Shown here piece by piece: positions 4,534-20,394 of a stretch of DNA of 64,000 nucleotides. Source of the DNA: Candidatus Allofournierella pullicola (GTDB lineage Bacteria > Bacillota > Clostridia > Oscillospirales > Ruminococcaceae); NCBI GenBank assembly GCA_019114225.1, contig DXFW01000019.1, positions 1-64,000 on the forward strand. Reading direction: 5' to 3'. The translations under genes and the position numbers were made by a program. The notes beneath the pieces are model-generated. The model saw nothing but the letters and a program-made list of their open reading frames with translations. It was not told the DNA's origin and ran no database searches. Position 1 is the first letter of the stretch, and every line of letters starts with the position of its first letter.

Positions 4534-5592
4534 TCATTTCATGATTTCTGCCAGACCTTGTTCAAACGGCGGATAGACAACGCCTTTTTCCGTAATAATC
4601 GCAGTGATAAATTCGTTGTCTGTAACATCAAAAGCAGGATTGTATGCCTTAATTCCGGCGGGCGCCTGCGGCGTTTTGTACCACAGAGTACTGATCTCAC
4701 TGTCTTGCCTGAGCTCGATCTGAATATCCTTGCCGGAAGTGCAATTCATATCAATGGTGGAAGTGGGCGCGCAAACATAAAACGGCACCCCGTAACGACT
4801 GGCCACAATAGACAGAGTAGACGTACCGATTTTATTCGCCGTATCGCCGTTGGCAGCCACGCGGTCGCAGCCCACCAGGCAGGCATCCACCCATCCATTT
4901 TTCATCACAATGGAGCACATGTCATCGCAGAGCAGAGTGACATCCACGCCGGCCTGCTGCAGTTCCCACGCGGTCAGTCGGGCACCCTGCAGCAACGGGC
5001 GGGTCTCATCAGCAAACACACGGAAGCCATAGCCCCTGTCTTGGCCCAGATAAATAGGTGCCAGCGCTGTGCCATATTTTGCCGTAGCAATGGTACCCGC
5101 GTTGCAATGTGTCAGCAGGCCCATTCCCGGCCTCAGCAGCGCCAACGCATTTTCGCCAATGGCTTTGCAGACCTGTTCATCTTCTTCGCGAATTGCATGG
5201 GCTTCCGCCAAAAGCGCGGCTTTGCAGCGGCTCACAGGCTGCCCCTCACAGGCGTCCAGGCATCGCTGCATACGATCCAGCGCCCAGAACAGGTTTACTG
5301 CGGTAGGACGTGCGCTCGCCAGAAATTTTCTTGCCTCGGTAAAATCCGCGTGTAAAGCAGCCCACTCCGTAGCAGAGGACTGCTTGGCGGCCAGGTACAC
5401 ACCATAGGCTGCCGCGATGCCGATGGCAGGCGCTCCCCGAACCTGCAGCCGATAGATTGCATCCCAAATCTGCTGTTGCGTCGTCAATGTCAGGTATTTT
5501 GTTTCACCCGGCAAAAGCGTCTGGTCCAGAATGATCAGTGCGTTTTTCTCGTCGTCCAGGCGGACGGATACCACATCATCCACAACACTCAT
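4534..5592 (-). CDS. mtnA: MtnA-family aldose-1-phosphate isomerase (methylthioribose-1-phosphate isomerase-like)
   Basis: A 352-residue protein, standard for MtnA of the eIF2B-like superfamily. Substrate-loop RGAPAIG is at 52-58. The catalytic Cys163 lies in THCNAG and the catalytic Asp243 in GCDRVAANGD. The family reaction converts 5-methylthioribose-1-phosphate to 5-methylthioribulose-1-phosphate; relatives use 5-deoxyribose-1-phosphate or ribose-1,5-bisphosphate. No methylthioribose kinase is present. The adjacent phosphorylase would yield the 1-phosphate directly, so this isomerase probably links phosphorolysis to the aldolase. RBS AAGGAGG is clear. The exact 5-substituent of the substrate is not decided by sequence. 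Confidence 0.9.
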   Translation of the reverse strand: MSVVDDVVSVRLDDEKNALIILDQTLLPGETKYLTLTTQQQIWDAIYRLQVRGAPAIGIAAAYGVYLAAKQSSATEWAALHADFTEARKFLASARPTAVNLFWALDRMQRCLDACEGQPVSRCKAALLAEAHAIREEDEQVCKAIGENALALLRPGMGLLTHCNAGTIATAKYGTALAPIYLGQDRGYGFRVFADETRPLLQGARLTAWELQQAGVDVTLLCDDMCSIVMKNGWVDACLVGCDRVAANGDTANKIGTSTLSIVASRYGVPFYVCAPTSTIDMNCTSGKDIQIELRQDSEISTLWYKTPQAPAGIKAYNPAFDVTDNEFITAIITEKGVVYPPFEQGLAEIMK

Positions 5593-5606: not shown

Positions 5607-6305
5607 TTATTCCGCCATCAACTCCAGTGCAAAACGGGCAATTGCATTATAGGCTTCCTCGCGTTGCCAAGCGTTGAGCGTTTCTTCAGTAACAGCATTT
5701 TCAAAGACACATAGCAGTCCTAACGCCGGCAAACCAAAGCGGGCCGCAACGGTATACACCTGGTTCATTTCCATATCCAGCCCCAGTGTGCCCCGGTCGG
5801 CAAACCGTGAAACCACAGGCAGCTCGTCCCTGATTTCCAGCGAAAGGACCGGCCCGACCCAGACACGCTGTCCCTGCTTATGCGCACGCTCCCACGCCTT
5901 GTTCAGAAGTTCAAAATCCGCCGCCGCCGGGAACGTGCGTCCTCCAAAGCGCAGGCGGTTTATGCGGGAGGTGGTGTGGGCAGTCTGTGCTAGCAACCAG
6001 TCGCCCGGTTTTAGTCGGGGATCGATTGCCGTGCAGCCTTCCAACTTCACGAAACACCTTGCCTCGAATTCGCCGGCAATCTCTGCCGCATACATCGCTG
6101 CGGACACCGGGCCAACACCGGTCCCTTGGACTGTGATTTCTTTGTTCTGGAACTTGCCGGTATAACCATGCATGTTGCGGATCTCGTTGTAGCAGACCGT
6201 ATCTTGCAAAAGGCGGGTGGCAATATACTGAACATTGCTGTCATCTTGTGTCAGCAGAACCACATTCGCAACATCTCCGGGAGAACCTGTCAGGCACAAC
6301 CCCAT
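5607..6305 (-). CDS. Divergent nucleoside phosphorylase-fold protein, likely altered active site
   Basis: A 232-residue member of the PNP/UDP phosphorylase fold, sharing the NEIRNMHGYTGKFQ and VQGTGVG segments with its upstream neighbour. Key positions differ. The phosphate-binding GDP of DeoD enzymes aligns with QDD (20-22), and the catalytic Asp of the CSDH motif aligns with Asn203 in FENA. The MEM motif (178-180) at the ribose site remains. It starts directly after the stop of the canonical phosphorylase. It may be a regulatory partner in a mixed oligomer, a hydrolase-like variant, or a phosphorylase for an unusual nucleoside. The alignment was made by eye. Confidence 0.72.
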   Translation of the reverse strand: MGLCLTGSPGDVANVVLLTQDDSNVQYIATRLLQDTVCYNEIRNMHGYTGKFQNKEITVQGTGVGPVSAAMYAAEIAGEFEARCFVKLEGCTAIDPRLKPGDWLLAQTAHTTSRINRLRFGGRTFPAAADFELLNKAWERAHKQGQRVWVGPVLSLEIRDELPVVSRFADRGTLGLDMEMNQVYTVAARFGLPALGLLCVFENAVTEETLNAWQREEAYNAIARFALELMAE

Positions 6306-7058
6306 TTATCTCCCCTCCTCTGCCAGTTTGTACGCCGTCTCCAGCGCCACTTTCATCATGTTGTTATACGCTGTTTCCCGCTGTGCCAAAGGGGTGTCCT
6401 CACTCTTATAAATCTGGTGATCACTGCAGGTGATTAGCAAAAGTGCCCGCACCTGGGGATAGCGTGAGGCCGCCACCAGCAGGCCTGTGCCCTCCATTTC
6501 GCTGGCCACCATTTTGTAGCCCTTCCATGGATCAAGATAACTCTGAGGCTGATCCGGTTCTTTATAGAGCACGTCCCCACAAGCACTCACTCCCACATGA
6601 ACCGGGATCCCGTTTTCTTTTGCGCAGTCATAGGCTGTTTTCAACAGCGTGAAATCACTGGTGGGAACGAAATCGTACTCTCCAAAATCCATCACTGTGT
6701 TGTTCGATTCGCTGGCGCTGGCCGTGGAAAGAATGGTATCTCCCACGTGGACATCCAGTTCCTTACTGCCCGCTGTGCCGATTCGGATAAGGTTACGACA
6801 GCCATGATCTTCGATCAGCTCATAGGCACACTCCATAATGGAGGAGGTCCCCATGCCTGTTCCCTGCACAGACACGCGCACACCCTTGTAAACACCTGTA
6901 TAACCGTACATGCCGCGATTGGTATTGTAGCACTTGACGTCTTCGAGATAGCGCTCTGCGAGGTAGCGTGCACGAAGCGGATCTCCGGGCAGGAGCACTG
7001 TTTCCGCAATGGAGCCTTTCGGCGCACGCAGCAAACCTGGTCCAAACAGGTTGATCAT
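6306..7058 (-). CDS. deoD: Purine nucleoside phosphorylase, DeoD-like hexameric type
   Basis: A 250-residue protein. Phosphate/ribose site motifs are LLPGDPLRARY (22-32), YNTNRGMYGYTG (44-54) and QGTGMG (65-70); the ribose-binding EME is at 187-189 and the catalytic Asp213 in CSDH. These enzymes cleave purine ribonucleosides with phosphate to free base and ribose-1-phosphate. The start ATG overlaps the stop of the permease gene (ATGA), tying catabolism to import. Products fit the operon: ribose-1-phosphate (or a 5-modified form) to MtnA, and adenine to the adenine deaminase encoded at 17.6 kb. Annotation as uridine phosphorylase is possible, since both belong to one family. Confidence 0.88.
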   Translation of the reverse strand: MINLFGPGLLRAPKGSIAETVLLPGDPLRARYLAERYLEDVKCYNTNRGMYGYTGVYKGVRVSVQGTGMGTSSIMECAYELIEDHGCRNLIRIGTAGSKELDVHVGDTILSTASASESNNTVMDFGEYDFVPTSDFTLLKTAYDCAKENGIPVHVGVSACGDVLYKEPDQPQSYLDPWKGYKMVASEMEGTGLLVAASRYPQVRALLLITCSDHQIYKSEDTPLAQRETAYNNMMKVALETAYKLAEEGR

Positions 7059-7981
7059 GGTTTGTCCACCTTCTTTCTTTTCATCTTGCCGGCACTTTTC
7101 GCCGCTGCAACCAGCCCGATCATAGTAACCAGATAGGGAAGCATCCGTACCAGCTCACTGGGGATATTCAATGTACTGGCAGTGTTGGCCACAGCATCCG
7201 CTGTGCCGAACAGCAAAGATGCCAGTGCACCGCCCAGCGGGTGATTCCCGCCCAAAGCTGCAGAAGCCATGCCAATAAATCCTCGGCCTGCAGTCATGTT
7301 CGTCTGGAACCAGGAAACATATCCCATAGACATAAAGCAGCCGCCCAGTGCCGCCATCACACCGGCGATGCACATCGCCAAAATCTTGATACGCACAGAA
7401 TTGATTCCCACAGATTCAGCCGCGCTGTCGTTTTGGCCTACCATTCGCAGCCGCAGACCCAGCTTGGTTTTAAAAAGGAAAACGTGCATCAGCACCGCCA
7501 TCAGCACCGCAATATAGGTCAGCACATTATGCCCGGACAAGACTTCTCCCAGCACAGGGATATCGCGGAGGAGCGGAATATCCACTGTGGGCAGTGTCAG
7601 GCTCATCACACCCGAGCTCATACCTTTGCTGCCCGTCACAACATAAAGGATGAAGGTGGTGCCGCCGGCCATCATCAAGTTGAAAGCAACACCGTTCATA
7701 AACATATCCGCTTTAAGCACCAGCGCTGCATAAGCGATCACAAAGGACATCAGCACGCCGATGGCCACTGCGATCAACAGACCCAACCAAGCGCTGTGTG
7801 TCCAGGCGCTGAAAAGCACCCCCATCAGTGCGGCGGTGAGCATTGTGCTCTCGATTGCCAGGTTCATCATTCCTACCTGGGCTACCACAATGCCCGCCAG
7901 GCTGGCATACAGCAGCGGAGTAGTCATTCGGATGATGGTTGCCAGGAACGTCGGGGAAAAGATCAACGAAGCGATATCCAT
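7055..7981 (-). CDS. Nucleoside ABC transporter permease, second subunit (NupQ/YufQ-like)
   Basis: A 308-residue membrane protein with about eight to ten predicted helices and the family segments GMMNLAIE near residue 37 and GFIGMASAALGGNHPLGG near residue 237. This is the inner-membrane permease family of BMP-type nucleoside importers (related to branched-chain amino acid and sugar permeases). It follows the first permease by three bases and overlaps the phosphorylase start. Together with the first permease and the ATPase it should form the translocation channel for nucleosides delivered by the lipoprotein at 10.8 kb. Confidence 0.92.
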   Translation of the reverse strand: MDIASLIFSPTFLATIIRMTTPLLYASLAGIVVAQVGMMNLAIESTMLTAALMGVLFSAWTHSAWLGLLIAVAIGVLMSFVIAYAALVLKADMFMNGVAFNLMMAGGTTFILYVVTGSKGMSSGVMSLTLPTVDIPLLRDIPVLGEVLSGHNVLTYIAVLMAVLMHVFLFKTKLGLRLRMVGQNDSAAESVGINSVRIKILAMCIAGVMAALGGCFMSMGYVSWFQTNMTAGRGFIGMASAALGGNHPLGGALASLLFGTADAVANTASTLNIPSELVRMLPYLVTMIGLVAAAKSAGKMKRKKVDKP

Positions 7982-7984
7982 GGT

Positions 7985-9067
7985 TTATTTTCCCCCTTCC
8001 AGTTTTATATTGGCCGTAGCCTGGGCAAACGTGCGTTTTTTCTCCCAACCGGCCAGGAAGTTTTCCGCCACAAGCAGGATAATGACTACACCCTGAATGA
8101 TGGACACGATTTCGTTAGGCACATCAGTCATTCGTGTCATAATATCCGCGCCCACACGCATATACGCAAGGAAAAACGCTCCAAGGGGCACCAGTGCCGG
8201 ATTGTTACGGGCAAGCGTGGCCACGATGATGCCATCCCAGCCAAAGCCGGGAAGGTCTTTCCACATGAAGGCGCTGTACATACCCAGCATCTCACTGGCA
8301 CCGCCAATGCCGCACACCGCTCCGGCAAGTCCCTGACCGATCAGGATCGCAGTGCCTGCGCTGATGCCGGAATAAACGGCAAACTTGTGATTGGATCCTA
8401 CCATGCGCATCTTGTATCCCCAACGGCTTTTGTACAGATAGAGCCACAGCGCCGCGACACACAGCACCGCGAGAATAAGGCCCGCATGGATACGGGTGCC
8501 GGGAATGATGCGCGGCAGAACCGCGTTCTCGTTGAAGGGAAGGGATTGCAGTGTTCCGGACGCGGGGTCCTTAACGAACGTGCGAATCAAAAAGCTGCCA
8601 AGATAGAACAGCACATAGTTGAACATCAGCGAGGCAACGATCTCGCTGGCATCATAGCGCAGCCGTATCACCACCGGCACCAGCATGGTAACAATGCCGC
8701 CCAGGGCAGCGATCAGAATACAAACTGCCGGCAGAATGACCGGCGGCAGATCGAGCTGCACAGCGGCCAGTGCCGCCAGTGCGCCGCTGAAATAGAAAGC
8801 GCCCTCACTGGCCAGATTGATGATGTTTGTGCGGGCTATCAGCGAGATTGCAAGCCCGGTGAACACCAGCGGCAGCGCCGCCTCCACAACGTTGGCCAAA
8901 CGGCTCATTTTTTTCAGCGGGCCGAAAATAAAATAGCCGATTGCCTCGCCCGGAGTTTCACTGACAGCCACAATGATCACCAGTGTCAGGCCCAGCGCAA
9001 TGCCCACAGCCAGCAGCGTGCGGATAAAGTTGAAACACATGCGGCTGCTCCAAATCTTTTTCAGCAT
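7985..9067 (-). CDS. Nucleoside ABC transporter permease, first subunit (NupP/YufP-like)
   Basis: A 360-residue polytopic membrane protein. An N-terminal helix (about 14-34) is followed by a periplasm-facing loop and multiple further helices. Family segments include TNIINLASEGAFYFSGA around 85-100, YDASEIVASLMFNYV and GFGWDGIIVATLARNNP near 280. It is a BMP-type nucleoside importer permease. The start overlaps the end of the ATPase gene by seven bases, so translation is coupled. If the ATPase frameshift is real, expression of this permease would depend on reinitiation. Confidence 0.92.
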   Translation of the reverse strand: MLKKIWSSRMCFNFIRTLLAVGIALGLTLVIIVAVSETPGEAIGYFIFGPLKKMSRLANVVEAALPLVFTGLAISLIARTNIINLASEGAFYFSGALAALAAVQLDLPPVILPAVCILIAALGGIVTMLVPVVIRLRYDASEIVASLMFNYVLFYLGSFLIRTFVKDPASGTLQSLPFNENAVLPRIIPGTRIHAGLILAVLCVAALWLYLYKSRWGYKMRMVGSNHKFAVYSGISAGTAILIGQGLAGAVCGIGGASEMLGMYSAFMWKDLPGFGWDGIIVATLARNNPALVPLGAFFLAYMRVGADIMTRMTDVPNEIVSIIQGVVIILLVAENFLAGWEKKRTFAQATANIKLEGGK

Positions 9068-10673
9068 GTGCAGGCGCCTCCTTTCCCGTCATCATACAGG
9101 CCCGTGAGTTCCTTTTCCGACTGCTGTGCCAGACCCAGCATGTACAAACCAAGTTCTTCCTCGGTCAGCTTTTTCACATCCGGGAAAAACCCGGTGATTC
9201 GTCCGCCATGCATCACGATGAGCCGGTCAGACAGTTCCAGTACTTCGTTCAGATCCGAACTCACCAGCAAAATAGCACATCCGCCTTGACGCGCCGCAAG
9301 CAGCGCTTTGTGGATAGTCTCTGCCGCCCCCACATCGATACCGCGGGTGGGCTGGCTTGCAATAAGCACTTTGGGATTGGTGGACATCTCACGGACCACC
9401 ACTACTTTTTGGATATTACCGCCCGAGAGCATCTTTACCGGAACCGACGGCGACTTACAGTGCACAGAAAACCTTTCTGTGAGCTGTGAAGCCAGCTGCG
9501 CTTCTTTCTTTCCGCTGAGAAGGAATCTGCCGCCCAGGTCCGGATCATCGCAACGGGTCGAAATGTAGTTCTCTGTAATGGATTCTTCACGGGCAACACC
9601 GTATGTCATTCGATCCTCATGGATGTAGGACATTCCCAAATCACGACGCTCCCGGATGGACAATTCATTACCGGGACGGCCCAACAATTCGAAGGTTCCC
9701 TCAGAAGGCTGCTGTAAGCCGCCTAGGATCTCCGCAAGCTCTTTTTGACCGCTGCCTTCCACACCGGCTACACCGAGGATACAACCGGCGTGCAGGTCCA
9801 GGCTGACATGATCCAGCACAGTGATGCCGTGGCGGTCCACACAGCTCAAGCCGCGTATCTTCAGCACCGTCCCACCTTCCTCCATCGGAGGTTTTTCAAT
9901 CGTCTGTACCGCGTCTCGGCCCACCATCAGTCGGGAGATATCCCGGGCGGTCAGTTCCTTCACTTCATAGGTTCCCATCACTCTGCCCGCACGCATAATG
10001 GTCAGCCGATCACAGATTGCCTGGACCTCATCGATTTTGTGAGAAATGAAAATAATGGTATAGCCACCCTCCTTCAAGAGGAGAAGCTGCTTAAAAAGTT
10101 CCTGTGTCTCCTGAGGGGTGAGTACAGCGGTGGGTTCGTCCAGAATAATCAGATGCGAGTTTCGGTAAAGGCTCTTCAGTATCTCCACTTTTTGCTTCTG
10201 ACTCACGGAAATGTTGCGAATCAATTCTTCCGCCTTGACATTGAACCCATATTTTTCCGCCAGACGGTCCACCACCTCAGCGGCGCCACGCTTGTCGAAA
10301 AAGATACCGCTGTTGGGTTCCATCCCCACCACAATGTTCTCTGCCACAGACAGCTCCTCGGCCAGATTGAAGTGCTGGTACACCATGCCAATTCCGAGGG
10401 ACACTGCCTTTTGGGGCGAATCGATCTGCCTGGGCTGCCCGTCATAAACGATGGTGCCCCGATCAGGCCGTTCGTTTCCGAACAGTACCTTCATCAGAGT
10501 GGACTTGCCGGCGCCGTTTCACCCATAAGGGCATGTATCTCTCCCCGACGCACGCTAAAATCGACATTTTCATTTGCCAGAACACCGTTGTCGTATACTT
10601 TGGTGATACTGCGCATCTCCAGCAGTATGCCGCCCATCGGGGTCTGCACGTTTTTTTCTGCTCGTTCCTGCAT
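9061..10673 (-). pseudogene. Nucleoside ABC transporter ATPase with a one-base frameshift in Walker A
   Basis: Two overlapping frames together encode a NupO/YufO-type ATPase of about 536 residues with two nucleotide-binding domains. The 5' frame starts at 10673 after AAAGGAG (MQERAEKNVQ...) and runs to RGEIHALMGE, then shifts to ETAPASPL and stops at 10496-10494. The other frame reads NGAGKSTLMKVLFG and is open to 9061. A run of AAA (minus strand, 10519-10517) where AAAA would restore GENGAGKST explains the shift. Everything downstream is intact: Q-loop YQHFN, signature ISVSQKQKVEIL, Walker B LIILDEPTA and a second domain with LSGGNIQKVVV. The second domain naturally lacks a standard Walker A. 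The cause may be true inactivation or an assembly/sequencing error in a homopolymer. Confidence 0.85.
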
Positions 10674-10781: not shown

Positions 10782-11918
10782 TTACGGACGGGCATTGTTG
10801 ATAATTTCTTTCACCTGCGCTTCGTCCATGCCATAGGCTGTGTCCACCACGATCTCGCCGGACAGGATCTTTTCTTCCAGTTCGGTGATACGGTCGCGGA
10901 TATCCTGAGGAACATTCTTCTGGTAATACTCGTTGTTGGACAGGCAGATAATTCCTTCCGCCACACCCAGCGTCTCGCCAGTGCCGAACACTTCTTCACC
11001 GTTCATATAGCGTTCCACCACTTGCACGATGTTTTTGTCCAGGCTCTTCAACTGGGAGGTAAGGATCAGGTTGGCTTTTTCGGGATCATCCTCGTACAGC
11101 AGCGACTGGTCGGAATCGGTACCGATGGAATACTTCTGCGCTTCTTTGCCCGCGTCCAGTGCGCCCAGGCCGGCGCCGCCAGCACCGTTGTATACCACAT
11201 CGCAGCCCGCATCAAACATGGTCTTGGCGATTTCCTTGCCCTTGGCCGCGTCGGTCCAGGAAGCAGTGTAAGAAGTAATGACTTTCATCTCGGGGTCGAT
11301 GTACTGTGCCCCCTGGATAAACCCAAGCACAAAGTCATTGATCAGCGTAATGTCCATGCCGCCTACAAAGCCCACCAGTTTGGAAGCCGGATCCGCATTG
11401 GGCATTTCTTCAGAGGTGGAAACCATGGCAGCCAGCGCACCGGCCAGGAATGCACCCTCATTGCCCTTGTAATCGGCGGAGTAGATGTTGGGATTCGCAC
11501 CGTTTTCGTGATCCACCTGCGTATCCAGCAGGATATACTTCTGATCCGGGAACTTAGCTGCGACTTCTACCATGGGTTCTGCGCTCTGGAAGCCGATTGC
11601 CACAATGATATCCCATTCGCCGCCAGACACATCTTCCAGCGTGGGCAGGATTTTGGTGTCATCATTTCCGTATTCGATGACTTTTGTCTTTGCGCCATAT
11701 TGTTCGGTGAGCTGTTTCAGACCATTGGCCGCAGATTCGGAGAAGGATTTGTCGCTGGCGTTTCCTGTGATGAGCACCACACTGGGCACTTCTGCGCCTG
11801 TCTGCTCAGCGCCGGACGCGCCGCTTGTTGCAGGCTCGGAAGAAGGGCTGCCGCCGCAGCCGATCAAAAGGGATACCATAAGGGTCAGTGCAAGAACGAT
11901 CGCTGATAACTTTTTCAT
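10782..11918 (-). CDS. BMP-family nucleoside-binding lipoprotein (PnrA/BmpA-like)
   Basis: A 378-residue lipoprotein. The start at 11918 is supported by AGGAGG nine bases upstream and gives a classic lipoprotein signal: MKK, hydrophobic core, then LLIGCG with lipid-modified Cys21, followed by a Ser/Gly/Glu linker. The mature domain resembles the basic membrane protein family (VVLITGNASDKSFSESAANG near the N-terminus, IIVAIGFQSAEPMVEVA, and GFVGGMDITLINDFVLGF), which binds purine nucleosides. It is first in the transporter operon, preceded by a region with AACACAA repeats. It would capture nucleosides at the outer face of the membrane. Confidence 0.95.
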   Translation of the reverse strand: MKKLSAIVLALTLMVSLLIGCGGSPSSEPATSGASGAEQTGAEVPSVVLITGNASDKSFSESAANGLKQLTEQYGAKTKVIEYGNDDTKILPTLEDVSGGEWDIIVAIGFQSAEPMVEVAAKFPDQKYILLDTQVDHENGANPNIYSADYKGNEGAFLAGALAAMVSTSEEMPNADPASKLVGFVGGMDITLINDFVLGFIQGAQYIDPEMKVITSYTASWTDAAKGKEIAKTMFDAGCDVVYNGAGGAGLGALDAGKEAQKYSIGTDSDQSLLYEDDPEKANLILTSQLKSLDKNIVQVVERYMNGEEVFGTGETLGVAEGIICLSNNEYYQKNVPQDIRDRITELEEKILSGEIVVDTAYGMDEAQVKEIINNARP

Positions 11919-11940
11919 AATGTGCCTCCTTTGAAAATGA

Positions 11941-11979
11941 TTGTGTTTTCTCCCGAATCCAACACAAACTAACACAAAT
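11941..11979. promoter_or_regulatory. AACACAAA repeat cluster, likely DeoR operator
   Basis: Three copies of one heptamer lie between the divergent DeoR and transporter genes: TTGTGTT (11941-11947), AACACAA (11961-11967) and AACACAA (11972-11978). The first two form a perfect inverted repeat; the last two are direct repeats 11 bp apart, one helical turn. The same octamer recurs near the oxidoreductase promoter at 20438-20445. DeoR proteins typically bind such repeats and respond to phosphorylated sugars; assignment to this DeoR is inference. Confidence 0.6.
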
Positions 11980-12062: not shown

Positions 12063-12830
12063 ATGCTTGCGATTACTCGTCTGAACGCCATCAAAGAGAT
12101 CATCCGCCAGCAGAAAAGTGTGCTTGTCAGCGAACTGGCGCCCCGTTTCGATGTGACGGAGGAAACCATTCGCCGCGATTTGAAGAAACTGGAGGATGAA
12201 GGACTCGTCACCCGCGTATACGGCGGCGCATATAGCACCGGAGGCGTGCAAAACGATGTGAACATTTCTCTGCGGCAAACCATTCTCGTGGATGAAAAGC
12301 GGGCCATCGCATGCCGCTGTCTGTCTTCCATAACCAACGGCGACTGCATCTTTCTGGACTGTTCCACCACGGTTTTGGAACTGGCTCAGCTTTTGACTCA
12401 GTACAGCCTGACCGTGATCACCAACTCGTTGAAAGTCGCGGACTGTTTGGCCACATGCAACGATATCCGCCTGATTCTGGTAGGCGGCACCCTGCACCAC
12501 ACGTCCATGTCCTTTCTTGGGCAAAATGCCTGCTCCGCGCTGGCAAATTATTATGTAGACAAAGCTTTTGTTTCCTGCCGTTCACTATCCATTCGGCATG
12601 GCATCACGGACTCCAACGAGGAGCAAAGCCTTTTGCGGCGCGTAGCCATCCAGTCTTCCGACCAGGTGTTCTTACTGGCTGACCACACGAAGTTCGATAC
12701 AACTTCCTTCTCCAAAATCGCAACGCTGGATGAGATCAGCACCCTGGTGACAGACCGTCCTCTTTCGCCCGAGTGGAAGGAATACATGGACAGCAAGGGA
12801 TTTTGCTACATCGACACCGATTTGGTATAA
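12063..12830 (+). CDS. DeoR-family transcriptional regulator
   Basis: A 255-residue protein preceded by AGGAGGG. The N-terminal winged helix includes SELAPRFDVTEETIRRDLKKLEDEG (the usual DeoR recognition region). The C-terminal sensor domain is of the DeoRC/sugar-phosphate-isomerase type: DCSTTVLELAQLL near 100, ITNSLKVADCLA, VLVGGTLHHTSMSFLG and LADHTKFDTTSF. DeoR proteins usually repress catabolic operons until a phosphosugar binds. It is divergent from the transporter operon and convergent with the RLP gene, and shared AACACAAA motifs suggest it controls more than one unit. The effector may be a pentose-1-phosphate. Confidence 0.93.
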   Translation: MLAITRLNAIKEIIRQQKSVLVSELAPRFDVTEETIRRDLKKLEDEGLVTRVYGGAYSTGGVQNDVNISLRQTILVDEKRAIACRCLSSITNGDCIFLDCSTTVLELAQLLTQYSLTVITNSLKVADCLATCNDIRLILVGGTLHHTSMSFLGQNACSALANYYVDKAFVSCRSLSIRHGITDSNEEQSLLRRVAIQSSDQVFLLADHTKFDTTSFSKIATLDEISTLVTDRPLSPEWKEYMDSKGFCYIDTDLV

Positions 12831-12831
12831 C

Positions 12832-14043
12832 TCAGGCTCCCTCCGCCGCGCTTTTCTGCGCGGCGTTTTTTCTTTCCCACACGTCATACGCCTGTTCCAC
12901 TGCTGTTACAAAGCGTTTGCAGTTTCGTCTTACATCGCTGCCGCAGGTAAAAAGGCCTCCGCCAATCAGCACCAGTACGTCGGGACCATAGCTCGAAACG
13001 ATCTCCCCGATGTTTTCCAGCTGCATGCCTCCGGCAGGGCTTGGGAACACCGTCTTCAGGGTTCCCAGCGGGCTGCGTCCGGCTTCGGCAATGCCAAGGC
13101 ACTGCTCTCGGGACAAGGAAAATCTGCCTCCGTAGTTGGGAAAAATGACCGCGTCCGCTCCTGCCATGCGCATTAGCGTTCCAAACAGCACCGGGAACGA
13201 GATTCCCTGCGGATTGACCGCATAACTTCCGATAAACGCCGGATGCGAAAAAACCGGCAGGGCGAGTTCATCGTTTTCCGCCAGTGCACGCATTGCGTCC
13301 AGGCTGGTGAGTCCGGGAGCTACCATCACACCACCAGCGCCCCACTGCTTTGCCCGCAGTGCCCTTTCAAACATCTGCTCTGCTGGACCGGTGATGTTGG
13401 GCACATACATTGCCCTGCGTCCGGTTCGGATGTTTGCCTCTGCCACTGCTTCCGCGCAGCGGCGCACACGCTCGTCGAAAGGAGCAAACACCTGATCAGT
13501 CAGGCCATGGTCATCTTTGATGATGTCCACGCCGCTTTCCACAAAAGCCTCTGCCAAATCCGCCAACTCATGAGCGGACAGGCCCATGGGCTTGAGCGCC
13601 GTGAACACCGGTGGGCGCCTGGAGATTCCCAGTCGGGCACGCAAACCATCCGTACCAAAGCGCGGTCCTCTGACCATGGACAGCAGCGCCGGTGTAAGCT
13701 CCACCGCCTCTACACGAATCCCCGGCATAATGCTGATGTTTCCGAACAAAACATTCAGAAGCTGGGTGAACTCACCTGCGGCAATTTCCTCCGCATAACT
13801 GATACATGCCAGATATCCGCCATCGTTCGCCGGCTGCAGGCTTTCCAATTGTCCCACTACCCGATCCAGGATGATTCCCGGCGGGATAGCCTCCAGCGGA
13901 AATTCTACCGTCTGCTCCCGGCACACGGCCTCAGCCAATGCCCGTGCGGAATCAAGATCTCCCTGCAGCCGGTATGTGACCTGGAAGCGCTTTCCATGCA
14001 GCTGACCGCACAGACGCCGGTCATCGTATGTAACAAAACCCAT
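12832..14043 (-). CDS. RuBisCO-like protein (form IV, type not decided)
   Basis: A 403-residue RuBisCO large-chain homologue. Active-site positions by eye: Lys151 in LKPMG (equivalent to spinach K175), then KDDH at 176-179 where true RuBisCO has KxDE. The carbamylated Lys and the Asp metal ligand are kept, but the Glu ligand is His. His267 in FSHPAF is kept. Loop 6 reads PNYGGRF, without Lys334, and the S379 region reads PAGGM. It is therefore not a carboxylase. Known RLP reactions include methylthioribulose-1-phosphate isomerisation, diketo-phosphate enolisation and 3-oxo-isoapionate-4-phosphate conversions. It follows the transketolase genes by 24 bases. Given the nucleoside operon nearby, a ribulose-1-phosphate-type substrate is my preferred guess. 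Confidence 0.9.
   Translation of the reverse strand: MGFVTYDDRRLCGQLHGKRFQVTYRLQGDLDSARALAEAVCREQTVEFPLEAIPPGIILDRVVGQLESLQPANDGGYLACISYAEEIAAGEFTQLLNVLFGNISIMPGIRVEAVELTPALLSMVRGPRFGTDGLRARLGISRRPPVFTALKPMGLSAHELADLAEAFVESGVDIIKDDHGLTDQVFAPFDERVRRCAEAVAEANIRTGRRAMYVPNITGPAEQMFERALRAKQWGAGGVMVAPGLTSLDAMRALAENDELALPVFSHPAFIGSYAVNPQGISFPVLFGTLMRMAGADAVIFPNYGGRFSLSREQCLGIAEAGRSPLGTLKTVFPSPAGGMQLENIGEIVSSYGPDVLVLIGGGLFTCGSDVRRNCKRFVTAVEQAYDVWERKNAAQKSAAEGA
12844..12871 (+). terminator. DeoR terminator located inside the RLP 3' coding end
   Basis: CGCCGCGC (12844-12851), loop TTTTCT, GCGCGGCG (12858-12865), then TTTTTT. It serves the rightward DeoR gene ending at 12830, yet its bases encode the last residues of the convergent RLP. 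Confidence 0.85.
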
Positions 14044-14067: not shown

Positions 14068-15075
14068 TTAAAGAGCCTCAGGCTTTGCATCGCTGTGCAT
14101 TGCCGGGGTGTACGTTTCCATCAAATCCTGCTCCCGGATGCCAAACTTCCGGTCAAGGACCTTTTCCACTGTGCCAATCAATGCCATGGCATCCAACCCA
14201 TACTCGCGCATCAAGTATCGCCGGCTGGCACCGTGTACAAAGGTATCCTGAATCCCCAGTCGGTAAAGCGGCTTTGCCACACCATAGGAAGCCATGCACT
14301 CGGCCACGATGGTGCCCAGGCCGCCGATTACACTGTGATTTTCCAGTGTGATCGCTCCAAACCGGCTGCGGGCAATCTCGTCCATGAGTTCGGGATGTTT
14401 GAAGGGCTTCAGGGTGGAGATATGATAGTGGCTTACTGCAACATTGCAATCCCGCAGGGCGGCCACCGCCCGCATCCCTTCCTCTGTACAAATGCCACTG
14501 GTCAGCAGAACAAAGTCTCTGCCCTCTGACAATTTGCGGTATTGGCCCAGCCGCATCGGCTCGTTTGCCGGGAACAACCGGGGGACCTCGCCCCGCAGCT
14601 GGCGCACATAGACCGGTCCGTTCACATTGTAGGCCACATCCAGCACAGATTCAATGTCCGTCGCATCACCGCTCTCCAGGATAGTCATGTTCGGCAGCGC
14701 GCGCATCACTGCGATATCTTCGATTGCCTGGTGCGTGGCGCCGCCCGGCGTGAGTACACCGGGCAAAAAGCCGAACATTTTCACCGGCAAGTTTGGATAC
14801 GCCACCGACATAGCGATCTGGTCATAGGCACGGCGATAAATGAACACCGCAAACGTGTGCACCAGAGGGACCAGCCCTTCTCGGGCCATTCCTCCTGCAA
14901 AAGCGAGCATATTCTGCTCTGCAATGCCCATTGAGAGGAATCTCTCCGGATATGTGTCGCGGAAAAGATCCGCCTCGCTGGAGCCTGTCAGATCCGCGGA
15001 AAGCACATACACATCAGGCTTATCCTTCGCCCAAGTGGCCAGATTCCTGGCATGCACTTTTTTCAAGATCTCCAT
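14068..15075 (-). CDS. Transketolase, C-terminal (pyrimidine-binding plus C-terminal domain) subunit
   Basis: A 335-residue protein from the ATG at 15075, which has AGGAGG upstream and begins MEILKKVHARNLATWA. It holds the second half of transketolase: the thiamine-activating Glu53 in GIAEQNM, the PYR domain (to about 180) and the C-terminal domain. Together with the gene just upstream it forms one functional transketolase, the split arrangement common in Clostridia. Transketolase moves two-carbon ketol units between sugar phosphates. The stop of the N-terminal gene is one base before this start, so the subunits are co-translated. Co-transcription with RLP suggests a ketose-5-phosphate made or used locally. 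Confidence 0.92.
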   Translation of the reverse strand: MEILKKVHARNLATWAKDKPDVYVLSADLTGSSEADLFRDTYPERFLSMGIAEQNMLAFAGGMAREGLVPLVHTFAVFIYRRAYDQIAMSVAYPNLPVKMFGFLPGVLTPGGATHQAIEDIAVMRALPNMTILESGDATDIESVLDVAYNVNGPVYVRQLRGEVPRLFPANEPMRLGQYRKLSEGRDFVLLTSGICTEEGMRAVAALRDCNVAVSHYHISTLKPFKHPELMDEIARSRFGAITLENHSVIGGLGTIVAECMASYGVAKPLYRLGIQDTFVHGASRRYLMREYGLDAMALIGTVEKVLDRKFGIREQDLMETYTPAMHSDAKPEAL

Positions 15076-15076
15076 A

Positions 15077-15994
15077 TCAGCGCACCTCCTTTGCCATTTC
15101 TTGATACACAGCGGCATAGGCTGCCCGCTCATCCTCACTGGTAAAGCGCACATAGTGGAATTTCGGATAACGCCCCTTCAGAATTGGCAGACCACGGCAT
15201 GGATCTGTATCACACAAAACAAATGTCGGCACATCACATGCAGGCTGTAAGCCCAACTCCGCCAATTTAGACAGGTCGTGTCCATCAATCCGGTATACCC
15301 TCGCACCAAACGCCGTGAGTCGGTCGTGGAAAGGTTCCAGATTCATCACCGAAGTCATTTTTCCATCACACTGGTATCCGTTCACGTCCACATAAATCAG
15401 CATATTGCCAAGTTTGTGATAGCTCATCGCCTGCACGGCTTCCCAGAACTCACCGGACTGGCACTCACCGTCAGACATCAGAAGCACCACCCGGCCCTGA
15501 TCTCCCCGCTGCCGCCGGGCAAATGCTATTCCAGCAGCTTGGCTGATTCCCTGCCCCAACGACCCAGTGGTGACTTCCATCCCAGGGGAGTGCTCTGCGC
15601 CAATCATCTCCACAGCACTGCCATCCTGATCGTATCGCGCCATCCCGCGCAGGTCCATGCGACCGGTCTCCACCAGGGTTGCATAGAGCACCAGCGCATA
15701 CTGCGCGGGCGAAAGGATGAAATTGTCACAATCGGATCGTCCTGCGCCATTGAAGGCCGCTCCCGTGACCGCCGGGTGGTCGGGACCAGGCGTACCAGTA
15801 AAATCGCCTGGCATTAACGGCACATCCAATTCATTCAACCTCAGGATCCGTGTATACAAGGCGGAAAATATCTCTGCGGAAGAACAGGCCTGGCTGAGAT
15901 ACCCACCATTGCGGCTGACAGTATTTTGAAGGACCCGAAGTCGAATGCGGTCGGCAATGCGTTGTGCCTCGTCTCTCCATTGCTGCTCGTTCAT
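15077..15994 (-). CDS. Transketolase, N-terminal (thiamine pyrophosphate-binding) subunit
   Basis: A 305-residue protein matching the N-terminal half of transketolase. The thiamine diphosphate motif begins at SDGE (174-177) and ends at Asn205 in DVNGYQCDG, giving the GDG-X28-N pattern with Ser in place of the first Gly. GSLGQGIS is at 144-151. The usual phosphate- and thiamine-site HSPGMEVTTG also appears. It is first in its own unit with a strong promoter and is followed by the C-terminal subunit and RLP. Two-subunit apulose-4-phosphate transketolases are also known, so substrate is not assured. Confidence 0.92.
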   Translation of the reverse strand: MNEQQWRDEAQRIADRIRLRVLQNTVSRNGGYLSQACSSAEIFSALYTRILRLNELDVPLMPGDFTGTPGPDHPAVTGAAFNGAGRSDCDNFILSPAQYALVLYATLVETGRMDLRGMARYDQDGSAVEMIGAEHSPGMEVTTGSLGQGISQAAGIAFARRQRGDQGRVVLLMSDGECQSGEFWEAVQAMSYHKLGNMLIYVDVNGYQCDGKMTSVMNLEPFHDRLTAFGARVYRIDGHDLSKLAELGLQPACDVPTFVLCDTDPCRGLPILKGRYPKFHYVRFTSEDERAAYAAVYQEMAKEVR

Positions 15995-16222: not shown

Positions 16223-17629
16223 TCACTGATCCTGTTTTGCCAAAACGGTCCTGAGATCCAGCATAAATGGATAGTACACACCATTCAGGTTGCTCATAGG
16301 CAAAACATCATCCGAAATAGAAATGCCCAGCGTTTCGCGCATGGCCTGCTGACGAGCACAGATACGCTTCCAAACGTCTGGAAATTCTTCCGCAAGCTGA
16401 AGCCGGGTCTTTTCCGACGCAATCACTACTGCATCTTCACAAATGGAGGTTCGTACCGGATCGCTCTTGCTTGCGATGATGTCCACCTGAATGAATTCTC
16501 CATCCATCAGCGCGTGGTCAGAAGTGGCACTGAACGCACTGTTAATCCATTCCTCCGTACCGGTTCCGTGCCCCGGATTAAGGGTAATACCATGGCGCTC
16601 ATGGTCAATATGTGCATAGACAGCATCATACAAATCCGAGCAGCGCGCGCCGACCCGTGCAGCTTCATACCAGGCAACCATCGCAGCAAAATGCGCCTTG
16701 TAGAAATTTTCATAATAGGGTCGGAGTTCCTCGCTGTAAGAATCCGGATCACGTGCAGCTACAGCGATCTTGGAAGTGAGGTTTCCTCTTACGGAATAGC
16801 AAACCCCACACACCTGGCCAAGTTCCAAATACACGTCCGGGCGCGGGGACTTCAGCCCAAGACTCACGCTTTGCGGCCCGAAGTTAATCATCGGGTGTAC
16901 ATTATTTGCCTCCAGCCCGGCCCCGGAACAGGCACTGACTTCCCATTCGCTGCGCCCTGGCGCGAGCGCTTCAAGCATGTTCTGCACAGCGTTCGCCACC
17001 CTGCAGCCGGCATATTCAGCCCAAGCGATTTCCTTGGGAGTATGCAGCCGCAGGCGAATGCCGTCCGGATAGCCTGTGAGCTCGCGAGTGAAATTCACAA
17101 CACGTTCCGCCGGGCAAAGCCGATATACCGCCGCCAGAATATATGCCGGCAGGTCGAAGGTGTGTGTTGGGTCACCCTCTCTGCCATCCTCGAAATACTT
17201 CACTCCCACGAGTCCCACACGAGAGCATTCACAAATGCCGGTGCGGGACAAGATTTGATGAAGTGCCTCTGGCCGCTCTCTGGGCTGCCCCTGCAGGCTG
17301 AAGTTTTGATACACATACCGGTCCACCTTGAACGGAATCTGATAACTATAACTCAGCCCCTCGTTTCCCACGATCATGGACACCTTTCCTTCCCGGTCCA
17401 TCACCATGAGCGCTTCTTCAAAACGGCAGTCGTAGCTGGTGAAATACTCCATGTGAGAAAAATGTTCACGATCACCATAAATCACCACAAAGTCTACCTG
17501 TTTTTCCTCCATCCGCTGTTTCAGCAATCTGACACGAAGCAGATAGTCCTCTTTTTCCAAAAACACAGGGACCGCATTCACCCGCTGACGGAACAGCGGC
17601 ACCGCCGGTACAGTTTTGATCAAAGACAT
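16223..17629 (-). CDS. M24-fold (creatinase/aminopeptidase P-like) protein with eroded metal site
   Basis: A 468-residue protein with an N-terminal creatinase domain (about 1-180) and a C-terminal pita-bread domain. Metallopeptidases of family M24 use Asp, Asp, His, Glu, Glu. Here the corresponding segments read LELG (Glu for Asp), RGNLTS (no Asp), NPGHGTG (His kept), QVDIIA (Asp for Glu) and CEDAVV (Glu kept). At least three of five ligands differ, so ordinary dipeptidase activity is doubtful. Creatinase, a metal-free C-N hydrolase of the same fold, and DddP-type lyases show that other chemistry is possible. It follows adenine deaminase by 14 bases in a nucleoside-related unit. The alignment was made by eye. 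Confidence 0.75.
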   Translation of the reverse strand: MSLIKTVPAVPLFRQRVNAVPVFLEKEDYLLRVRLLKQRMEEKQVDFVVIYGDREHFSHMEYFTSYDCRFEEALMVMDREGKVSMIVGNEGLSYSYQIPFKVDRYVYQNFSLQGQPRERPEALHQILSRTGICECSRVGLVGVKYFEDGREGDPTHTFDLPAYILAAVYRLCPAERVVNFTRELTGYPDGIRLRLHTPKEIAWAEYAGCRVANAVQNMLEALAPGRSEWEVSACSGAGLEANNVHPMINFGPQSVSLGLKSPRPDVYLELGQVCGVCYSVRGNLTSKIAVAARDPDSYSEELRPYYENFYKAHFAAMVAWYEAARVGARCSDLYDAVYAHIDHERHGITLNPGHGTGTEEWINSAFSATSDHALMDGEFIQVDIIASKSDPVRTSICEDAVVIASEKTRLQLAEEFPDVWKRICARQQAMRETLGISISDDVLPMSNLNGVYYPFMLDLRTVLAKQDQ

Positions 17630-17643
17630 CGTTTTCTCCTTTC

Positions 17644-19350
17644 TCAGTCAGCATAGAGCGGGATCATTTCCTGCCGGATCGTATCCAGCAGACCCCGGTC
17701 TGTCAGCCGGACTGCCGGAATAACCGCCAGCGCAAAGGAAGACAGCATCATGTGCGGCGTATGACCAGGAAGGCCAAACCGGGAAAGCACTTCCTTCAGC
17801 TGTTCCAGCTTTTGCGCCATCACCTGAGGCGGCTCGTCGCACATCAGTCCTGCCAGGGGAAGTTCCAGCTGAAAAACGACACGGCCCTGTTCCACGCAAA
17901 CAATTCCACCGCCAGTGGCCGCCAACGTAGATGCCGCCAGATACATTTCCTGTGGGTCGCGGCCAGCCACAAAAAGGTTATGACAATCGTGTGAGATCGT
18001 GGTTGCAACCGCACCGGTAACGAGCCCCAGCCTGTGGACTGGAGCCAGCGCCCGGCTACCGTTGCGGCCGTGGCGTTCAAACACTGCAAATAGTGAAAAA
18101 TCCGCTTGATTTCCAATGCATGCACAGCCATTTTCCACTGGGAACTCGCAGGTCTCCAGTGACGTGACGAACTTATTGTCGTCATTGTAAGCAATGGTGT
18201 GCAGCTTCACACTGGGCCCATGCGCCGGCACCTGAAAGTCTTCCGGGCGGATGGGGGTTGTTAGCAGCATAGTATTGGGATAAGACTGTTTTTCTTCCTT
18301 GTCTTCCCGAATCATGTTACCTCCGCGTGCAATCAGCTCTCCACCCAGGAACACTTCATCAGGGCGGAAGTCATGCAGATCAGACACCAGCAAAAGATCC
18401 GCGAGATTTCCCGGGCGGAGACTTCCCCTGTCGCGCAGACGAATCAGCCGCGCCGCGTTGACCGTTGCCGCTTTGATCGCGTCGATCGGGTCCATCCCGC
18501 CTTTTACCGCAATACGGATCATTTCATCCAAATGCCCATGCTCCACCAAATCGCCCGGCTCGGTATCATCTGTACAGAATGTGATGTTTTCCAGGCAATC
18601 CAGCCTCAGCAGCAAAGGCAAAAGACGTTCCAAGTCATAGCAATTGGAGGCATGGCGCACCTCCAGCACCATGCCAGCACGGAGTTTTTCCAGTGCCTCC
18701 TCCACCCGATGGGTCTCATGGTCCGATTCACAACCCGCAGCTAAATATCGGGATAATTCCTCACCGGTCAGATCGGGCGCATGCCCCTGAATAAACACAC
18801 CAGCCTTCCGGCCAGCGCACAGCACCTCCTGCATACGAGGAGCGTCCGCCACCACGCCCGGGTAATCCATTACCTCGCCCAGGCCCGCTATCCGGGGCTG
18901 TTCCAGTATCCACTCAATTTCCTTGCCGCCAAATGGTTCCCGGCACGTTTCCACTTCCGGCACCGATGGCACACAGGAAGGTGCAAGGATGAGCACTCTC
19001 AAAGGAAGATTCTCCGTCGCCTGCAACATATACTGGATTCCTTTCAGGCCCATTACATTGGCGATCTCATGGGGATCGGCGCAGACGGTCGTCGTGCCCC
19101 GTGGCGCCAGCGCTCTTGCAAAATACCGCGGGGTCATCATGCTGCTTTCAATGTGCAGATGTGTATCAATGAGTCCCGGTACCGCGAACTTGTTTTTTGC
19201 GTCGTATTCCCACACTCCCGTCAACTCAGCTTCGCCCGGCTGGGTAACGTGCGCAATGCGTCCACTCTGCACCGCGATCTGCGCCGGATACATCTCATGG
19301 GTAAACAGATTCACATAAATAGTATTTTTTATCACAAGATCGTAGAGCAT
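17644..19350 (-). CDS. ade: Adenine deaminase
   Basis: A 568-residue amidohydrolase. The start at 19350 has AAGGAG upstream and gives MLYDLVIKNTIYVN. The metal-binding signature GLIDTHLHIESS, the ADPHEIANVMG segment and FCTDDTEPGDLVEHGHLDE are all characteristic of bacterial Ade (COG1001). The C-terminal adenine deaminase domain (THTISHDCHNLF-like, here TTISHDCHNLFVAG) is complete. The enzyme hydrolyses adenine to hypoxanthine and ammonia in the cytosol. This fits salvage of base released by the phosphorylase at 6.3 kb. It lies 16 bases after the oxidoreductase gene in one unit. Confidence 0.92.
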   Translation of the reverse strand: MLYDLVIKNTIYVNLFTHEMYPAQIAVQSGRIAHVTQPGEAELTGVWEYDAKNKFAVPGLIDTHLHIESSMMTPRYFARALAPRGTTTVCADPHEIANVMGLKGIQYMLQATENLPLRVLILAPSCVPSVPEVETCREPFGGKEIEWILEQPRIAGLGEVMDYPGVVADAPRMQEVLCAGRKAGVFIQGHAPDLTGEELSRYLAAGCESDHETHRVEEALEKLRAGMVLEVRHASNCYDLERLLPLLLRLDCLENITFCTDDTEPGDLVEHGHLDEMIRIAVKGGMDPIDAIKAATVNAARLIRLRDRGSLRPGNLADLLLVSDLHDFRPDEVFLGGELIARGGNMIREDKEEKQSYPNTMLLTTPIRPEDFQVPAHGPSVKLHTIAYNDDNKFVTSLETCEFPVENGCACIGNQADFSLFAVFERHGRNGSRALAPVHRLGLVTGAVATTISHDCHNLFVAGRDPQEMYLAASTLAATGGGIVCVEQGRVVFQLELPLAGLMCDEPPQVMAQKLEQLKEVLSRFGLPGHTPHMMLSSFALAVIPAVRLTDRGLLDTIRQEMIPLYAD

Positions 19351-19366: not shown

Positions 19367-20350
19367 TCAAAGCTGCACCAGGGTACCCGTCTCCAGCGAA
19401 CGGTTTGCAGCGAGAGTGAACGCAAGCGTTTTCACCGCATCGGCATAGCTGGACTTAATTTGGGACTGGTCGTGGTCTCTCACTGCCGACACGAACGCCT
19501 CCATAGCCAGCTTGTGATACACAGGTTCAAAGGGCACCTCCCGTGTGCCCGACTGGTCTATATATTTCACGCCTGTGAAAAAGCCGTATTCAATTTTTGA
19601 GTCTTCCAGATAAATATCGAAGCCAATATCTCCGACCGCCTTGGTCGTATCCAGATAGCAACCAGCCAAAATGGCCGCCATCTGGCCGTTTTTGAAAGCA
19701 ACCGTGCTGTAAGAACAGTCTTCGGTATCCGCCTCCGGCTGCGGAGGATTGAGTCCTTTGCAGCCCACTGTATAAATCGAGGCCGGCTCTCCAAAAAGAT
19801 AGCGGAACAGGTCAAACACATGGGTGCACTGCTCCACAAGCTGGCCGCCTGATTTGGCACGGGTGCGCCACCACGGTAGATCCGGCACACTATAGATCCA
19901 TTTTCCCACCACGAGGCCGGCCGTGTGGTTTTCCAGGATTTTTTTCACTTTGTCGATCTCGCCATTGTAACGCCCTTGGTACCCCACCGAAGTAATAATA
20001 CCCGCCTGCTCAATGGCTGCCAGGTTGCGCTCCGCCTCTTCCATGGTAACGCAAATAGGCTTTTCTATGTACAGTGCAACACCCCGCTTTGCGGCCATCA
20101 CTTCCAGGTCTCCGTGGCGATACGGCGTGATGCTCACCACAATCGCGTCCAGTTCCGGCTCCTGTTCCAGCATTTCTTTGTGGTCAGGATACAAACGCGC
20201 CGAGGGCACCCGTTTGCCTGTGGCCAGCAGCTTTTCCCTGTTGCCCGTAGCAAACGCGACCACCTCCACCCCCGGGATGGAGAGCAGATTGGTCAGATGA
20301 AAATTTCCAAAGTTTCCGCAGCCCACCATACCAACTTTGATTGTTTTCAT
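19367..20350 (-). CDS. Gfo/Idh/MocA-family NAD(P)-dependent sugar oxidoreductase
   Basis: A 327-residue protein from the ATG at 20350, which has AGGAGG immediately upstream (the upstream Met at 20365 lacks one). The Rossmann motif GMVGCGNFGNFH is near the N-terminus and the family signature EKPICVT, whose Lys is catalytic, near residue 95. The C-terminal substrate domain includes GGQLVEQCTHVFDLFRYLFG. The family oxidises or reduces sugars, inositols and related polyols. It is first in the unit with adenine deaminase and the M24 protein; its substrate may be a nucleoside-derived or branched sugar. The specific reaction cannot be read from sequence. Confidence 0.9.
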   Translation of the reverse strand: MKTIKVGMVGCGNFGNFHLTNLLSIPGVEVVAFATGNREKLLATGKRVPSARLYPDHKEMLEQEPELDAIVVSITPYRHGDLEVMAAKRGVALYIEKPICVTMEEAERNLAAIEQAGIITSVGYQGRYNGEIDKVKKILENHTAGLVVGKWIYSVPDLPWWRTRAKSGGQLVEQCTHVFDLFRYLFGEPASIYTVGCKGLNPPQPEADTEDCSYSTVAFKNGQMAAILAGCYLDTTKAVGDIGFDIYLEDSKIEYGFFTGVKYIDQSGTREVPFEPVYHKLAMEAFVSAVRDHDQSQIKSSYADAVKTLAFTLAANRSLETGTLVQL

Positions 20351-20394
20351 ATTTCCTCCTTTCATTTTGGGAAAAGTCTAGCTGTTTTCATCAT

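Follow-up and report, generated by a model that had tools for sequence, protein, structure and literature searches.

The RuBisCO-like protein (RLP) encoded in the window, the whole stretch of 64,000 nucleotides of Candidatus Allofournierella pullicola analysed here, belongs to a clade in which His replaces the Glu metal ligand of RuBisCO. On the balance of the evidence we favour a reading in which this RLP is a DeepYkr-type isomerase that feeds a nucleoside-derived sugar phosphate to a split transketolase. The His substitution is not new, as it is already present in a solved Rhodopseudomonas palustris protein; the part that looks new is the transketolase partner.

Features of the window are collected in Table 1. 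A regulator gene lies between the run with MtnA and the phosphorylases and the run with the RLP; the two are near each other but do not form one operon. At the RLP locus, no cupin methylsulfurylase gene was found beside the RLP gene; the split transketolase stands there instead. The listed open reading frame of the importer ATPase lacks its N-terminus because the frame is broken at Walker A, the N-terminal part lying in another frame (10494-10640, minus); the break is either genuine or a fault of the assembly. The second phosphorylase-family gene is 30% identical to the first, with SDH changed to FEN at the catalytic Asp, and its product is possibly a partner or a diverged paralogue. The M24-like protein had a marginal Pfam score and no sequence match in the PDB. 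A giant surface protein is encoded as a single ORF of 8366 aa (21231-46331); a TGGTEP repeat lies close to its N-terminus, and its C-terminus carries a membrane anchor.

Table 1. Features of the window, with positions in the whole stretch
Feature	Position	Strand	Remarks
RuBisCO-like protein (RLP)	12832..14043	minus	403 aa; DeepYkr-type clade (predicted); KxDH signature
KDDH, residues 176-179 of RLP	13507..13518	minus	metal-site positions Lys176 and Asp178 retained; His179 replaces Glu
Lys151 codon of RLP	13591..13593	minus	presumed RuBisCO Lys175 column
Arg307 codon of RLP	13123..13125	minus	loop-6 Lys column
TKC, C-terminal half of split transketolase	14068..15075	minus	335 aa from ATG behind AAGGAGG
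TKN, N-terminal half of split transketolase	15077..15994	minus	305 aa
Peptidase M24-like protein	16223..17629	minus	in RLP gene run
Adenine deaminase	17644..19350	minus	
Gfo/Idh/MocA-type oxidoreductase	19367..20365	minus	first gene of RLP run
DeoR/AgaR-type regulator	12063..12830	plus	separates the two gene runs
BMP/PnrA-type binding lipoprotein	10782..11975	minus	of nucleoside ABC importer
ABC importer ATPase	9061..10494	minus	ORF listed without N-terminus
Two importer permeases	7985-9067 and 7055-7981	minus	homologous to importer genes of locus L096
DeoD-type purine nucleoside phosphorylase	6306..7058	minus	
Second, diverged phosphorylase-family protein	5607..6305	minus	without catalytic Asp
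MtnA, 5-methylthioribose-1-phosphate isomerase	4534..5592	minus	TIGR00512, 414 bits against a cut-off of 279

The RLP ORF matches RuBisCO_large in Pfam. The minus-strand letters at its metal-site motif, AAAGATGACCAT, translate to KDDH, exactly as an earlier note on this DNA had read it. RLPs were aligned in 149 rows, some genes being present twice since they were fetched via two tools; the motif was KDDH in 100 rows, KEDH in 3, RDDH in 2, KDDE in 43 and KNDE in 1. All 105 clade rows had His in the His179 column, and Glu was found there in the counted MtnW, clostridial KDDE, OiaX-like, Photo and form I rows. Pairwise HMMER alignments likewise place His179 opposite the Glu of KDDE in the MtnW-type chains 2oek, 2oej, 4nas and 3fk4; both kinds of alignment thus put it at the Glu204 position, a point on which the earlier note had made its claim depend. 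The Lys151 column, which we take to be that of RuBisCO Lys175, held Lys in every row counted, and the loop-6 Lys column held Arg in 102 of the 105 clade rows and in the window RLP (Arg307); elsewhere it was Ser in MtnW and Lys in form I, OiaX-like and most clostridial KDDE proteins. The alignment columns agree with the note that Lys176, Asp178 and Lys151 are retained and the loop-6 Lys is missing. Because His179 is invariant across many phyla, chance or a sequencing error is excluded. His179 in place of the Glu ligand, together with Arg307 in place of the loop-6 Lys, speaks against a carboxylating RuBisCO, and the window RLP probably fixes no CO2. Both RDDH rows are one gene, from genome G015 (L008/L028), with Arg for Lys176, an altered loop-6 stretch and neither partner gene nearby; this clade member has probably undergone a further change of function.

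For the phylogeny, relatives were gathered from the window's class, from 84,980 species genomes (80 kept of 213 relatives) and from Pseudomonadota, and a tree of 82 rows was built by a quick IQ-TREE run with SH-aLRT support. A single branch, with a support of 100, parted 57 rows with His from 25 with Glu, and all 57 clade rows have His at position 179. This means that His179 is a signature of the clade. The earlier note had stated that KDDHGL marks form IV RLPs outside MtnW, and had taken the motif to argue against an enolase; both points are supported, the His rows forming one clade apart from MtnW, with the window RLP inside it and scoring far under the MtnW cut-offs. The OiaX-like (3-oxo-isoapionate) proteins form a clade of their own, in which Glu is retained. 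The 3-oxo-isoapionate-4-phosphate decarboxylase OiaX itself was rejected, with 76 bits against an NCBIfam equivalog cut-off of 700, and the tree also speaks against it. The tree neighbours of the window RLP are Treponema, Planctomycetaceae, Spirochaetia and Synergistales records, and the sampled family and order of the window genome lack this gene; this grouping suggests that the gene was acquired horizontally.

Which reaction goes with the His clade can be read from the R. palustris structure 3qfw, which falls inside it and also has the KDDHGL motif. Of the two RLPs that R. palustris carries, RLP1 belongs to the DeepYkr clade and RLP2 to the Photo clade (PMC5893883). The record title of 3qfw gives only an R. 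palustris RLP; the structure of rlp2, the second RLP of this species, is 2qyg, which is close to the Photo-type L126, itself outside the KxDH clade in the tree. By elimination, 3qfw should then be RLP1. This identification is strengthened by locus L158 and a Terrarubrum plasmid, where 3qfw-like RLPs adjoin a cupin, as the cupin gene is next to RLP1 in locus number in R. palustris (RPA2169/RPA2170, PMC5893883). RLP1 was assayed as a 5-(methylthio)ribulose-1-phosphate 1,3-isomerase with a kcat of 1.3 per s, and the studied DeepYkr members are 5-methylthioribulose-1-phosphate (MTRu-1P) 1,3-isomerases (PMC5893883). The AlphaFold model of the window RLP (mean pLDDT 95.1) had 3qfw as its top structural match (Foldseek 5.4e-39; Z 46.4, rmsd 1.7, 351 residues), and Bacillus subtilis MtnW was tied with it at a Z of 46.1, so that the fold does not separate isomerase from enolase and the decision falls to sequence and tree. 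Judged by homology, the RLP is a predicted DeepYkr-type isomerase, neither enolase nor carboxylase, and its reaction is probably a known one. The earlier note had expected a different reaction: it was right that this is not the enolase, but the reaction is already named in the clade (PMC5893883), so that His marks a known group and not an unknown one.

We then looked at the gene neighbourhoods of relatives, taking the 70 loci whose upstream sequence reached 3 kb or more; some genomes are counted twice. A transketolase was found near the RLP gene in 49 of them, a cupin in 8, both in none and neither in 13; MtnA was near in 13 and MtnK in 10. In all 61 cases transketolase and RLP shared a strand, and in 53 of these they were at most 200 bases apart; none of the 8 cupin genes was more than about 700 bases away from the RLP gene. 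The split transketolase precedes the RLP gene in most relatives, in many phyla, and the pairing spans Clostridia, Spirochaetes, Chloroflexota, Rhizobiaceae and one Lokiarchaeota bin. Such loci often include MtnA, either with MtnK and a sugar importer, as on a Rhizobium rosettiformans plasmid (mtnK-mtnA-TKN-TKC-RLP beside a divergent sugar importer), or with a nucleoside importer and phosphorylases, which is the version found in the window. In one Anaerolineae locus (L096) the same inventory as in the window forms a single run, importer BMP-ABC-two permeases-MtnA-TKN-TKC-RLP-PNP. On the tree the members with a cupin are interspersed with those that have a transketolase, with 3 to 5 partner changes, and the simplest reading would be that the RLP reaction is shared and that either of two enzymes follows it. 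Among the other operon neighbours, a Pfam scan found nothing recurrent that would name the fate of a two-carbon unit. Two Chloroflexota loci, L070 (8415-11140) and L104 (3149-5919), have a sugar importer and an FGGY kinase followed by a clade RLP, with neither transketolase nor cupin within the stretch. No description of the RLP-split transketolase pair was found in the searchable literature, an absence that is weak evidence; as far as searchable papers go, this conserved module is undescribed.

Both TKN and TKC come closest to the split-gene enzyme of Carboxydothermus hydrogenoformans, and the TKN model (pLDDT 88) had 6yak as its best fold match; NCBIfam scores of both halves are far below cut-off. 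In the window TKN, Tyr32 stands at the His26 position and Gln at the His66 position, His100 is lost and the DGE..N ThDP motif is kept; TKC has the FLPG..TPGGATHQ fingerprint and keeps the catalytic-Glu motif GIAEQN. Positions are given in what we take to be E. coli numbering. The RLP-linked copies behave alike: TKN has Tyr at the His26 position and a residue other than His at the His100 position in 42 of 42, with Gln (23) or His (19) at the His66 position, and TKC has Leu at the His461 position and Gly at the Asp469 position in 47 of 47. The DGE..N cofactor motif, the catalytic Glu and the His473 position are kept throughout this family, whose fingerprint GGYLSQACS / EMIGAEHSPG / FLPG..TPGG.THQ was seen in Proteobacteria, Chloroflexota and Spirochaetes alike. 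In ordinary transketolases the replaced residues contact hydroxyls of the donor; their loss would fit a donor that differs in its C1 group. This transketolase type was present in 6 of 391 genomes of the window's class, all 6 being among the 7 with a clade RLP (Fisher p 1.5e-12, unadjusted for kinship), and in 6 of 398 Pseudomonadota, 5 of them with an RLP. In the sixth, G739, no RLP match was found in the search of the 398; its transketolase (L184 8706-10648, L185), of the same split type, lies beside a sugar importer and an FGGY kinase, with two zinc polyol dehydrogenases and a SorC regulator, a locus that may hint at the substrate class of the enzyme. The window genome also encodes a complete Dxs (625 bits) and another split transketolase, which makes TKN/TKC an additional, dedicated one.

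SAM chemistry leaves 5'-deoxyadenosine and MTA behind as toxic by-products. Known routes for their salvage finish with a step that needs oxygen, with a cupin or with an aldolase. In the route we propose, the nucleoside importer and phosphorylase would supply the 1-phosphate of a 5-modified ribose, either 5-deoxyribose (from 5'-deoxyadenosine) or 5-methylthioribose (from MTA), while adenine deaminase would consume the adenine freed by phosphorolysis. MtnA would convert this 5-substituted ribose-1-phosphate to the 5-substituted ribulose-1-phosphate. At a Mg site made of Lys176, Asp178 and, we infer, His179, the RLP would carry out two successive enolisations that shift the carbonyl: the C2 ketone would be enolised and re-ketonised stepwise to C4, giving a 1-substituted pentulose-5-phosphate in reversed numbering. 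The product would be a 1-substituted xylulose-5-phosphate, or 1-deoxyxylulose-5-phosphate when the substituent is H. This isomerase step is known for relatives, and is predicted here by homology. TKN and TKC would cut between C2 and C3, releasing glyceraldehyde-3-phosphate and holding a two-carbon unit on thiamine diphosphate; this unit might leave as acetaldehyde, be transferred to an acceptor or, with the methylthio substrate, eliminate methanethiol to give an acetyl unit. Such an elimination from the thiamine-bound intermediate would resemble a phosphoketolase reaction, which to our knowledge is known for no transketolase.

As to the substrate in the window organism, the genome had no match to the spermidine synthase family, which 11 of 14 control genomes have, and no MTA/SAH nucleosidase above cut-off, so that MTA made by the spermidine route is not expected. 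Likelier inputs are nucleosides taken up from the surroundings or the 5'-deoxyadenosine that radical SAM enzymes form. The R. rubrum phosphorylase accepts both MTA and 5-deoxyadenosine (PMC4958253). Taken as a whole, an undescribed anaerobic route in which the RLP isomerase passes 1-methylthio- or 1-deoxy-xylulose-5-phosphate to a two-subunit thiamine enzyme, giving glyceraldehyde-3-phosphate, is a possibility that we put forward tentatively. If true, RLP isomerase and specialised transketolase would make up a further salvage route, one independent of oxygen, a large gene class now labelled just 'RuBisCO-like' and 'transketolase' would gain a function, and KxDH with Arg307 would be a testable sequence mark of the isomerase type.

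We consider it unlikely that RLP and transketolase act on some other imported deoxy- or branched sugar, as its ketose phosphate, and that the nucleoside genes are there by coincidence. The FGGY kinase-RLP loci without transketolase and the RLP-less G739, with its kinase and polyol dehydrogenases, make other substrates possible, and the Gfo/Idh oxidoreductase and M24-like gene in the window's RLP run have no assigned role; but RLP and transketolase repeatedly have MtnA and MtnK as neighbours, the Anaerolineae run unites importer, MtnA, phosphorylase, RLP and transketolase, and the scattering of members of the cupin, MTA-isoprenoid type among transketolase-linked ones suggests a shared reaction. 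That the RLP makes 1-deoxyxylulose-5-phosphate for isoprenoids, with the transketolase as a substitute Dxs and both feeding the MEP pathway, we hold to be quite improbable. TKC does resemble Dxs, next after split transketolase, the N half is annotated Dxs-like on one plasmid, and R. rubrum RLP and cupin supply isoprenoids (PMC4958253), yet the window genome has its full Dxs, the clusters hold importers and kinases typical of catabolism, and the substrate-binding histidines of transketolase are replaced. Finally, a DK-MTP-1-P enolase (MtnW) of aerobic methionine salvage with a harmless Glu-to-His change is hardly credible, for although MtnW models are the best NCBIfam matches, the KDDE group nearest in the tree is MtnW and MtnA is encoded nearby, the scores are 207 and 157 bits against equivalog cut-offs of 409 and 513.6, the RLP sits in a separate, fully supported clade, several further columns differ besides His for the Glu of KDDE and Arg for Ser at loop 6, and the annotated neighbours included no recognised mtnB, mtnX or mtnD.

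Compared with known systems, the isomerase reading brings the window RLP closest to the DeepYkr RLPs of R. palustris (RLP1) and R. rubrum, which belong to the MTA-isoprenoid shunt: 3qfw shares its clade and motif and is its best match in sequence as well as fold. Sequence identity with the window RLP, a predicted isomerase, is only about 40%, and the partner in the shunt is the cupin methylsulfurylase instead of a split transketolase. MtnW (B. subtilis, Geobacillus kaustophilus) has in common with the window the fold, the Lys176, Asp178 and Lys151 positions and the upstream MtnA step, and differs by Glu and Ser at the places of His179 and Arg307, by its clade and by the cut-offs that the window RLP does not reach. 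The OiaX-like RLPs (and 3nwr) share the form IV fold, but keep KDDE and the loop-6 Lys, both absent from the window RLP, and stand in their own clade. The C. hydrogenoformans split transketolase (6yaj/6yak) shares the two-subunit layout, the ThDP motif, the catalytic Glu and the His473 position with the RLP-linked family, in which His26, His100, His461 and Asp469 are uniformly replaced or lost, and His66 is often Gln. The DHAP shunt for 5'-deoxynucleosides, made of MtnK or a phosphorylase, MtnA and an aldolase (PMC6079011, PMC10986504), has the same entry steps as the route proposed for the window and probably the same substrates; its aldolase yields DHAP, whereas RLP and transketolase would, in our proposal, yield glyceraldehyde-3-phosphate.
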